A stretch of 64,000 nt of DNA from Bugula neritina (taxonomy: Eukaryota > Bryozoa > Gymnolaemata > Cheilostomatida > Bugulidae). The stretch lies in NCBI GenBank assembly GCA_964035545.1, contig OZ037772.1, positions 4,499,733-4,563,732 of the forward strand, given 5' to 3'. Numbering within the stretch: position 1 is the first letter of the stretch; the number at the start of each line of letters is the position of its first letter. The notes under the pieces were generated by a model. The model was not told where the DNA came from. It made no database searches and saw only the letters and a list, made by a program, of their open reading frames with translations. Made by a program: the position numbers and the translations under genes. Shown here piece after piece: positions 4,216 through 64,000 of the stretch.

Positions 4216-5235
4216 ATGAATGGACGCAAGTAGCCGTGACATATGACTATCCTAGTGGAGTCGTCAGAATATACCAGGGGACAGAGGAGAGGACAGTGTC
4301 AAGGTCAGTGTGTAGTCATATATTACTGTACACACAGTATCACTCATAGTATACTCATACAGTAATATACTCATATATATATTACTATATTATGAGTATA
4401 TCACTGTACACACAGTATCACTCATAGTATACTCATATAGTAATATACTCATATATATTGCTATATGAGTATATTAACTTACACAGTACTAGTGTACACA
4501 CAGTACCACTCTACCTATAGTAACTGTGCATGAGTATCACAGTTACTATAGTTGTAACTAGAGTTCACATCTTACTATACCTATGAGTAGTTATAATTAG
4601 TATATCTATGTGAATCATGTTTAAGGAGCAGCTGTGGTCTAGGGGTTAAAGCGTTCAAGAAGTCACGGGTTTAAACCCCAGTAAGGGCCATTGGTGATGT
4701 CTGGAAAAGCATCCAGTCATAATTGCTACTGTGCCCCATTTAAATAAGTCCTTCGCCCGATTTAACAAAAACCCTTTCCATGAGGAGTTTCTCACAGAGA
4801 TAGGGACTAAAAACTTGCGTGAGTTTTTTATGTGAATTATGTTTCTTTTTTATTATCATACGATCGGCATTTATATAATATGTGTGTAGTTCTTGCTAAA
4901 GAGTTAGTTATGGTTGCTAGATTCCACAGTGTTACTCTAATTTATATTAGTAGTAGTTATATACCTAATTATTCTACCATGTAATACATGTAGAGTATGA
5001 GTCTCGCCTTACGCAGCTATAACCACTGTACATCACTGACACGCATATAGCCTCAGTTTCTCACGCAGGGCTAGTTACTCAGCTGTTCTGGATGATGAGT
5101 GGGACACAGTCTACCTTGGAGCTATGTTGGGAGACGGCAGACGTCTGCAAGCTGCGATTTCTTGCATGATGTATTTTAACGCCTCACTCACAAGAGAGCA
5201 ACTCTCGGCTGCATTCAGCATTTGCCGAAATTATG
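4216..5235 (+). CDS. LamG-like module 1 (C-terminal half only), two exons
   Basis: Exon 4216-4303 encodes [20 protein letters not shown], the strand that in LamG/pentraxin folds precedes the LYxDG turn. Exon 5069-5235 follows with [20 protein letters not shown] and ends in a Cys (SICRNYG). The intron between holds an imperfect array of about 80-bp units (ACTGTACACACAGTATCACT...), starting about 18 bp after the donor, and a tRNA-derived SINE at 4625-4836. The N-terminal half of the module must be encoded upstream of the window. Confidence 0.75.
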
Positions 5236-8200
5236 GTAAATTTTCATTTTGAGATTTTAAAGATACAATTAAATAAATCTCACCTGTTATAGCTTATATT
5301 ACCAACTTAAAATGTACAAGCTTGATTAAGGTCATCCTTCTACTGAATCAGTAATTTCATTGCTCCATTATAATTATATATGAAACAGTGCCCAGCTCAT
5401 AACTTAAATAATTTTGAGGCTAGAACCAAAATTTAAAAACAATTTTGTAAATCTTTTGCTGATCTATTGGAACCTTTTTAAAAATTTTCATTTATCTAAC
5501 TCGTTGCACTTTTATGCTCCAAAACAGTAAAAAATTGCCCATTTTTGCATAAAATAGCTAACATATTACAAACTATATTATATTACTAACTATACCACAT
5601 TACTAACTATTCTGTATCACTAACTATACTATATTACAAACTATACTATATTGCTAACTATACTATATTACTATCTATACTATATTACTAACTCTACTGT
5701 ATTACTAACTATACTAAATTACTAACTATACCGTATTACTAACTCTACTGTATTACAAACTATACTATGTTACTAACCGCTACTATATAGCTAACTATAC
5801 TATATAACTATTATACTTTATATTACTATACTTCTATATCACTCTGCAGAGGCTCAATCTCTGTATCCCTGGCCAGTCCCAGTAGCTTTCTGGCCACTAG
5901 ACAGACATTTCGGAGCCAACAATGCAGCAGGCGGAAACAACAAAGATGGAGTCAATTCAGCCATTTTGTTGCAGAAAGGACCCGATGGTTAGTGATACAT
6001 GTTTATGTCCAACTGGCACCTCTTTCTTACAGATAAACACAAACAGCTTACAATCAGCTGAGCAAAATAGTTTTTTAAACAGATGCAGAATTTAGGCAAT
6101 TCCAGTTTTTAGAATAAATTTGACATCAAAATGAGTGGTTACTACATCCATCCAAATAAAGGAAACAATGCACAGCTTCTTCATTAAAGTATATTGAATG
6201 AATTAGGTCACCTGTTTTGTTATACTAAAAGCACATTGAAATTGTTTCAAGTGAAAATTCCATTAGTTGATTTAAATATTCCATATCACTAGAACATTGT
6301 AGGTTTGCAAAAACGGGTTTACTAGTAACGAGCTCTCCCTTACAAATTACGAATTACAAAAAAGGCCCATGGACGAATAATAAGTTGTTTATGGCTATTT
6401 GTTCTTTTAATGTTAATGTATTGTGCACCAGCTATCATGTGGGTATTCTAGGGGTTTGTCGAAGTTGTCTTCTCATTATGAAAAGCTTCCCTAATAAATT
6501 AGAATATTCCCTGTATATTATATATCAAATCCGATCAAATATTATTATTTATGATTTACTAGACGTATACATTTCAGGATACAGTGACGGATCATATTTA
6601 TGTTTCAGGATACAGTGGCGGATCATATTATTTCGGTCAGGATGGCACTTCCTCCGTGACTGTCAGCAACTCTGAAGGTCAACTTAAAGTCACCAGTTTT
6701 ACTTTCAGTGCTTGGATTAAGCCTGGCAACGGGTGAGAGAATTAAATATATTGCATTGTCTTAGGAAACATGAAAAACATGCCGCAGGATGTAATCTAAC
6801 CTTTGCTGGTTTTACATACCACACCCCCCTTAAATATACACCACACCTCCTTAGATATATACACCACACCTCCTTAGATATATACACCACACCTCCTTAG
6901 ATATATACATCTCACCTTCTTAGATATATACACCACACCTCCTTAGATATATACACCACACCTCCTTAGATATATACACCACACCTCCTTAGATATATAC
7001 ACTACATCTCCTTAGATATATACACCACACCTTCTTAGATATATACACCACACCTCCTTAGATATACACACCACACCTCCTTAGATATATACACCTAGCC
7101 CTCTAAAACGTATAAACACCACCTCCCTAAACACACCCTCTTCCTCCCTTCAGTGTAGACACCATGGACCTCCTTCTAGCCCATGTGCCACTCTCGTCTA
7201 TGTACATACTGTTTCCCTTAAACCTGCACAACAATTTAAAACACTGCTCCGGGAGTCTCTCTAGTAGTCACATGCACGTATAACTAACCACGCCAGCTTC
7301 TTTCCTATAGAGGTTTGTAGTCTCTTTACTTACCCAAATCCGTCCAGCTTGTAATATATTGTAATTGCCTCCTCTTAGTGCTGGGCCCATATTCCGCATG
7401 ACGTCTAGTACGGAGGGTACCAGCTACCTTCCTCACATCTGGAAACATCCTACAGAGTCACAGCTATACTTTCATCATGGAGTAAAGAGTGGAGTGAGTC
7501 CCATCAAGTCTGATGTTGGGGGGTTGAAGATGCACCAGTGGAACTACATAGCTGCCACCTACGACTACGGAGCAGGTTTCACTTTATCCTATGTATATAC
7601 AGCTCAGTATGTTTATCACTTTATAGAATGAGTACTCGGGCTTATAGGTTGACCTTCACCTTGAAACGGCAACTCGACCTTCACTTTGTAACAGCAGGTT
7701 AACCTTTACCTTACAGCAGCAAATGACCTTCACCTTGCCATGGCAGTTCAACATTATGCTGCTAATTGAAATTCTGAAAACCCAGAAGTGTGACACTTCT
7801 TAGTAATGTAGATTGTGTTCATCTCAGAGGCTGCAGCCTTGCAGGGGGAGTATTTAGTACACAGTCGCATTAGTAGTTATAGTCACACTAGTATATAGTC
7901 ACACTAATGCATAGTTACACTAGTACATAGTTACATTAGTATACAGTCATACTAGTACATAAGTACAGTAGTACATAGTCACACTAGTATATAGTCACAC
8001 TAGTATATAGTCACACTAGTATATAGTCACACTAGTATATAGTCACACTAGTATATAGTCACACTAGTATATAATCACACTAGTAAATAGTCACACTAGT
8101 ACACAGTCACATTAGTACATAGTCACACTAGTACACAGTCACATTAGTATATAGTTACACTAGTACATAGTCACACTAGTACATAGTCACACTAGTATAT

Positions 8201-63624: not shown

Positions 63625-63654
63625 GTAAGCTGACGCAGGTACCTGGGGTAGTGT

Positions 63655-64000
63655 CATGGTAGGTATTGAGTATGTATTGAGTATGTATTGAGTATGTATT
63701 GATTATATATTGAGTATATATTGAGTATGTATTGAGTATGTATTGAGTATGTATTGAGTATGTATTGGGTATATATTGAGTATATATTGAGTATGTATTG
63801 AGTATACATTGAGTATATATTGAGTATATATTGAATATATATTGAGTATATATTGAGTATATATTGAGTATGTATTGAGTATGTATTGAGTATATATTGA
63901 GTATGTATTGAGTATATATTGAGTAGGTAGAAAGTATATATTGAGTATATATTGAGTATATATTGAGTATGTATTGAGTATATATTGAGTATGTATTGAG
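63655..64000 (+). repeat. 11-bp array (GTATTGAGTAT), open at the window edge
   Basis: About thirty copies with GTATGT and GTATAT variants start about 35 bp after the donor at 63624 and run to the end of the window. Confidence 0.9.

Follow-up and report, generated by a model that had tools for sequence, protein, structure and literature searches.

We asked why the tandem arrays in the introns of one stretch of the Bugula neritina genome lie so close to splice sites. The window, i.e. the whole 64,000-nt stretch that was analyzed, is positions 4499733-4563732 of chromosome 8 in assembly tzBugNeri2.1, for which nine chromosomes are described (PMC11480708). Three genes were modeled by hand from the window sequence (a LamG-domain gene, the gene of the RNA helicase DDX10/DBP4 and a third gene, G3), and all 46 tabulated introns of these models begin with GT and end with AG. 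An earlier examination of the letters alone (the sequence-only reading) had proposed that the arrays are born at splice junctions or, alternatively, that selection confines them to introns. The second alternative fits our results. The explanation that we favor, and to which we give close to an even chance, is constraint-bounded array turnover, in which arrays grow within compact introns until little but the splice signals remains outside.

We defined an array as merged rows of Tandem Repeats Finder (TRF) output spanning at least 60 bp, with a unit of at least 9 bp. Arrays or units below these sizes were excluded (including an AT array at 10555 and a TAC array at 27819), as was the split array of DDX10 intron 10-11, whose halves are each <60 bp. 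TRF returned 64 rows for the window, and the 30 merged arrays occupy 25 of the 46 introns, where at least 17 had been reported before. Their periods are 15-85 bp, some of them multiples of the unit (an 11-bp unit of the sequence-only reading is a 22-bp row in TRF). In lying within introns and in having tandem units of roughly 9-100 bp, the arrays agree with intronic minisatellites. They cover 29,073 of the 49,363 intron bp (12,518 of 32,808 bp when the largest array is set aside), 6 of the 7,407 exon bp and 660 of the 7,230 other bp, the last figure being the sum of the array that follows the stop codon of DDX10 and one in the last, unfinished intron.

Several introns contain hardly anything else. 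The part outside the array amounts to 33 bp in DDX10 intron 5-6, 56 bp in intron 4-5 and 49 bp in intron 14-15, and of the 16,561 bp of G3 intron d-e, 16,556 bp are array, with ∼6 bp outside. This d-e intron is the only one in the window that is a giant intron made mainly of satellite. Its array holds 392 units with TGTGAG (a live donor) intermixed with 331 units with TATGAG (a dead donor), and no higher-order structure was found among its ∼752 copies, neighbors being no more alike than units at other lags up to 12. Such mixing without neighbor correlation is unlike simple local slippage.

Observed placement was compared with a null model that shrank each array to a point and set it down at random among the bases of its own intron that are not array. 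Of the 30 window arrays, 19 had a splice site within 40 bp (10.7 expected, p 0.0002) and 17 had one within 25 bp (8.2 expected, p 0.0001). On the donor side there were 13 arrays versus 4.9 expected, while the acceptor side alone, with 6 versus 4.9, showed no significant excess (p 0.34).

The same comparison was made in an independent sample of 10-kb stretches, 18 of them taken at 1.0 and 3.0 Mb of each of the nine chromosomes and six more adjoining. Sample introns came from a small custom gene finder, trained on the window and then retrained on its own predictions, which, with the gene held out, hit the exact 3' end of 34 of 49 exons. Predicted introns with a flanking exon scoring <8 were excluded; the one false exon of array sequence that we met (score 6) fell under this threshold, while in the stretch upstream of SMC2 (C4j) the predicted exons are unlike SMC2 and possibly spurious, and some of them, scoring at least 8, were hence counted. 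Stretch L018, a Ty3-like retroelement in which TRF found no array with a unit of at least 9 bp, was left out of the counts. The sample gave 47 arrays in 41 of 127 predicted introns, and 29 of the 47 lie within 25 bp of a splice site (19.3 expected, p 0.0002). Under stricter exon scores the counts were 21 of 28 (14.2 expected) and 14 of 16 (9.4 expected). Here the excess was found at acceptors (18 versus 11.9 expected, p 0.01), with no significant excess at donors (14 versus 11.9, p 0.24). In SMC2, whose Watersipora ortholog runs on without interruption across 20 of the 24 pairs of consecutive predicted exons, 10 of 11 arrays are within 25 bp of a splice site (6.9 expected).

When window and sample were pooled, 46 of 77 arrays were within 25 bp of a splice site (27.5 expected); of the 48 whose intron has ≥150 bp that is not array, 21 were that close (6.8 expected). 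Array edges are therefore non-randomly close to splice sites both in the window and in the sampled 10-kb stretches, as the sequence-only reading had anticipated, and as arrays born at junctions would be. Its statement that most arrays start or end near a splice site is borne out, with 31 of the 77 lying >25 bp from both ends. By end, 27 of the 77 arrays are within 25 bp of the donor and 24 within 25 bp of the acceptor.

Can geometry alone account for this closeness? Ancestral introns may have been short, with arrays born anywhere in them and later insertions lengthening some, so that no takeover would be needed. Random placement gives ∼60% of the closeness (27.5 of the 46 arrays within 25 bp), the non-array part of array introns is often short, and three introns have a dispersed element within one array. 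The 48-bp array of G3 intron k-l is split by a 0.5-kb element (about 58790-59290; 43 genome matches), in the SMC2 intron at 6948-9076 of stretch L008 the same unit flanks the element (174 matches), and in DDX10 intron 10-11 the element is 0.73 kb long with inverted ends (64 matches; all three counts include self and partial matches). In the first two introns each half lies beside one splice site, and these arrays were near both splice sites before the insertion; one-sided anchoring may therefore arise after the birth of an array. In DDX10 intron 10-11 only the right half is beside a splice site (the donor, 9 bp away), the left half being remote from either one. What speaks against geometry alone is the excess over uniform placement in both window and sample, together with the size of the introns. 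With the array reduced to a single unit, 6 of 66 array introns would measure <60 bp (28 bp for d-e), compared to 2 of 107 array-free introns, whose median is 283 bp. We therefore regard geometry alone as possible, if on the unlikely side.

Also in favor of takeover, 15 of 53 introns have further or remnant copies of their own unit in the sequence outside the array (z >2, permutation p 5e-5).

We then considered birth linked to the junction itself, for example through R-loops or nicking near 5' splice sites. In its favor, several arrays have the junction in their unit, and where an intron has ≥150 bp that is not array, arrays on the donor side number 5.4 per 10 bp over the first 25 bp versus at most 1.2 farther in. 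The sequence-only reading had placed the donor inside the first unit at five sites. At three of them (11744, 33975 and 62002) the six bases that open the intron are indeed found again one period on, and 13197 comes near to it, with GTGAG shifted by 2 nt and changed to GTGGG. At the fifth, 55257, AC stands where the GT would be repeated, and the array starts at intron base +3. By eye, the junction lies within the unit in 13 of the 16 best candidates. Seven of the 77 arrays cross the junction according to TRF, by 1-15 exon bases; one of these is at the acceptor of DDX10 intron 7-8, where the array starting at 22774 covers five bases of exon 8, so the claim that no array enters a coding exon does not hold. 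For a minority of arrays, seeding at the junction is real.

As a rule, junction birth is unlikely. Random duplications of one unit would put the junction in the unit of 18.8 of the 77 arrays, so that with the seven observed by TRF there is no excess of junction-containing units over random breakpoints. A donor-like site (score at least 3) is present in the sense orientation in the units of 16 of the 77 arrays and in the antisense orientation in 22, and a general donor-seeding rule was rejected since sense donors are not the commoner; an array at 20057-20420 in DDX10 intron 10-11 has a consensus-like donor on the wrong strand. Since 18.8 arrays are expected and sense donors show no excess, junction birth is not necessary as a rule. 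Acceptors are moreover used about as often as donors, and many arrays are near neither end.

Constraint-bounded turnover would proceed as follows. Short tandem duplications would arise at roughly random places in introns, occasionally across a splice junction, and arrays would gain and lose copies fast. Given fast copy turnover, a lost array would readily be remade but lost unique intron sequence would not, and the array would gradually take over the intron. Takeover would halt where selection on the splice signals starts, a few bases past the donor and, at the acceptor, at the last ∼5-16 bases (the pyrimidine tract and AG). Later insertions could move one splice site away while the array stays beside the other. 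Of the 29 arrays in introns with <150 bp left, 12 stop 5-16 bp from the acceptor, and the array at 16495..16817, 26 bp from the DDX10 stop codon, lies beside a boundary of constraint other than a splice site. The excess of array edges beside splice sites, the two split arrays with a half at each splice site, the short collapsed introns, the unchanged edge of a copied array, the lack of a sense-donor excess and the near-absence of arrays from the exons of the window all point to this explanation as well. In this scenario the arrays would have no function of their own.

A number of observations weigh against this explanation. The excess is at donors in the window and at acceptors in the sample, and therefore neither end is favored overall. 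A null that allows one-unit overlap with the junction still leaves 46 arrays within 25 bp versus 34.9 expected (p 0.001). As the sequence-only reading had suspected, units resemble their own donor beyond chance (6.70 of 12 positions versus 6.24 of 12 for the donors of other introns; permutation p 5e-5, Wilcoxon 0.017), and the same is seen for their own acceptor (10.32 of 20 versus 9.52 of 20; permutation p 5e-5, Wilcoxon 0.053); this resemblance is due, as far as can be seen, to the few junction-containing arrays. Six of 105 sample arrays lie mostly within predicted exons, and exons are therefore not closed to arrays. The remnants may partly be tails of arrays missed by TRF, and the comparison of collapsed intron lengths is based on few introns. 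Six residual stretches of array introns were searched, of which three were the splitting elements, picked for having matching units on both sides. In the other three, the residue of G3 intron f-g is partly a dispersed repeat (its first 75 bp), that of h-i mainly has relatives on chromosome 8 plus three weak matches elsewhere, and that of L-M is unique; insertions therefore account for only some of the long residues. Finally, takeover was not observed over time, the data being those of one haplotype of one species.

In stretch L004 tandem arrays at 2033-2466 and 3772-4316 lie in predicted coding exons of a threonine-rich, mucin-like protein. At 22774-22779 and at L014:1691-1825 the unit holds the junction as CAG/GTGAGT or CAG/GTAAAG (slash at the junction). 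As the unit contains AG/GT, a donor is regenerated at each upstream copy of the acceptor, as in recursive splicing. A stronger form of constraint-bounded turnover, which we find doubtful, is a takeover ratchet: self-regenerating private minisatellites would replace unique intron sequence genome-wide down to the splice signals, and units with the AG/GT junction (DDX10 intron 7-8 and L014 1691-1825) would be tolerated because errors at upstream acceptor copies could be re-spliced from the regenerated donor.

Might the arrays instead be kept for a function, either as stacks of splice-like or U1-binding sites or as spacers that help to splice long AT-rich introns? Intact stacks of splice sites do exist (the TGTGAG units of d-e and the repeated acceptors of DDX10 intron 7-8). 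Nearly all units differ, sense donors are if anything rarer than antisense ones, and 21 of the 46 window introns and 86 of the 127 sample introns have no array of at least 60 bp, all of which makes a function very improbable.

Introners are a known case of intron content of repetitive origin, and in this respect the present introns are like them. We therefore considered whether the arrays are the interior of mobile introns or transposons that carry their own splice sites, as the introns filled end to end would allow. Exact genome-wide searches were made with two units, and 28 of 580 and 5 of 50 matches lay outside the window, none of them off chromosome 8. For these two units, the only ones searched, a dispersed repeat family as the source was rejected, which would set them apart from introners, a class with many near-identical introns dispersed over unrelated genes. 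The chromosome-8 loci that we read among the outside matches are copies of G3 pieces, and the dispersed elements sit inside arrays. Mobile introns are, in our judgment, the most remote of the explanations considered.

The units are largely private to their intron. Only 10 of 2,914 pairs of arrays from different introns share at least eight 10-mers, the neighboring introns c-d and d-e among them, so that the claim of a separate unit for every array is nearly correct within these introns; the 22-, 24- and 48-bp units reappear in chromosome-8 copies. In one such copy the f-g array has the same donor-side edge and ∼25 unit copies, compared to 4.7 in the window (by eye). The edge is constant while the number of copies differs ∼5-fold, which argues that edges are inherited and copy number changes. 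The G3 pieces that we read on chromosome 8 carry the intron units of the window at other copy numbers. Such pieces are rearranged at many places on chromosome 8 (stretches L024, L026, L028 and L029), and in L028 and L024 they adjoin pieces of CLASP-like exons. The segment 54215-54740 occurs at 13 chromosome-8 places besides the window, e.g. 289083, 482384, 760884, 2902423 and 3928561.

Three related phenomena are already known: minisatellites in introns, giant introns filled with satellite, and intron gain through tandem duplication. CeRep25B of C. elegans is described as an intronic minisatellite that forms one dispersed family, with one case tied to splicing regions (PMC4039745). Its tandem units are comparable in size to ours, whereas here the units vary by intron and array edges gather beside splice sites. 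The Drosophila Y genes kl-3 and kl-5 are described with gigantic, megabase introns filled by satellites (PMC6508621). They too have much tandem repeat inside introns, but in a few Y genes, whereas in Bugula neritina the arrays occupy numerous small introns, in ordinary genes and on several chromosomes. Intron gain by tandem duplication or repeat expansion is described for Cryptococcus CNN00420 (PMC2395259) and potato RdRp (PMC4974935). The likeness is a tandem duplication across a splice junction; the difference is that in those accounts the whole intron is in the repeat and introns are added, whereas here a unit has at most one junction. At the junctions that we checked, neither the DDX10 nor the SMC2 protein has an insertion.

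Among the open-access papers that our searches listed, none reports a genome with a private array set against the splice signals in many of its ordinary introns, and the words 'intron' and 'tandem' are both absent from the main text of two Bugula neritina genome papers. If what we describe holds genome-wide, much of the intron content of this species would turn over via private minisatellites as well as via transposons, and the arrays would offer a direct way to date the turnover of intron sequence and to map constrained intron bases. The arrays are also natural stacks of duplicated splice sites, with hundreds of near-identical donors in one intron, for questions of how the spliceosome chooses.

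Table 1. Genes and tandem arrays of the window (positions count from its first base)
Feature	Positions	Strand	Remarks
LamG-domain gene	4216..16166	+	16 exons modeled; phase of F-G junction uncertain
17-bp array, intron B-C (LamG gene)	5563..5843	+	stops 6 bp short of acceptor
20-bp array	11763..12511	+	donor 11744 resembles unit: 6/6 first bases, 13/20 across the period
22-bp array	13202..13420	+	starts at or adjoining donor GTGAG (13197)
20-bp array	16495..16817	-	3' of DDX10 stop codon by 26 bp; not at a splice site
DDX10/DBP4 RNA helicase gene	16844..30305	-	16 exons; open reading frame through stop
26-bp array, DDX10 intron 14-15	17588..18127	-	all but 49 bp of the intron
22-bp array, split, DDX10 intron 10-11	20531..21386	-	2.6 copies per side
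34-bp array, DDX10 intron 7-8	22774..23047	-	acceptor within unit; first 5 bases of exon 8 covered
31-bp array, DDX10 intron 5-6	24214..25843	-	23 + 10 bp of intron outside array
15-bp array, DDX10 intron 4-5	26011..26625	-	33 + 23 bp of intron outside array
Third gene, G3	32268..63624	+	thrombospondin-1-like stretch; exons b-r modeled
22-bp array, G3 intron d-e	33974..50529	+	∼752 copies; from donor to 6 bp before acceptor
24-bp array, G3 intron f-g	52312..52424	+	8 bp past donor
26-bp array, G3 intron h-i	53508..54210	+	19 bp past donor
21-bp array	55259..55572	+	from intron base +3
48-bp array, split, G3 intron k-l	55955..59711	+	one half 16 bp from donor, the other 32 bp from acceptor
29-bp array	62002..62917	+	starts at the donor G of GTACTC

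The three gene models (Table 1) are supported to different degrees. DDX10 is 73% identical to Watersipora subatra DDX10 across 84% of the query, and the alignment has a gap at none of the 11 junctions from 1-2 to 11-12, the later exons lying outside the query. By-eye comparison with the Watersipora protein indicates that exon 13 is probably shorter at its end than modeled; the adjoining intron is array-free. The first part of the LamG-gene product matches Pfam Laminin_G_3 (E 9.6e-19). In G3, a weak match to the TSP1 profile is under the cut-off, and the first exon and the b-c and c-d junctions are tentative. A paralog search with LamG exons K-L matched the window itself only, and in a search with G3 exons n-p all 39 of the other scored matches were to a short interspersed nuclear element (SINE) in intron n-o. 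This SINE is tRNA-like, ∼220 bp long and located at about 61067-61285, with at least 39 further copies genome-wide; by eye, more tRNA-like SINEs lie near 4626 and 14240. At the start of the window, positions 1-430 and 2672-3101 are 430-nt inverted repeats that are 98% complementary, and these arms suggest that 1-3101 is a putative large terminal-inverted-repeat element.

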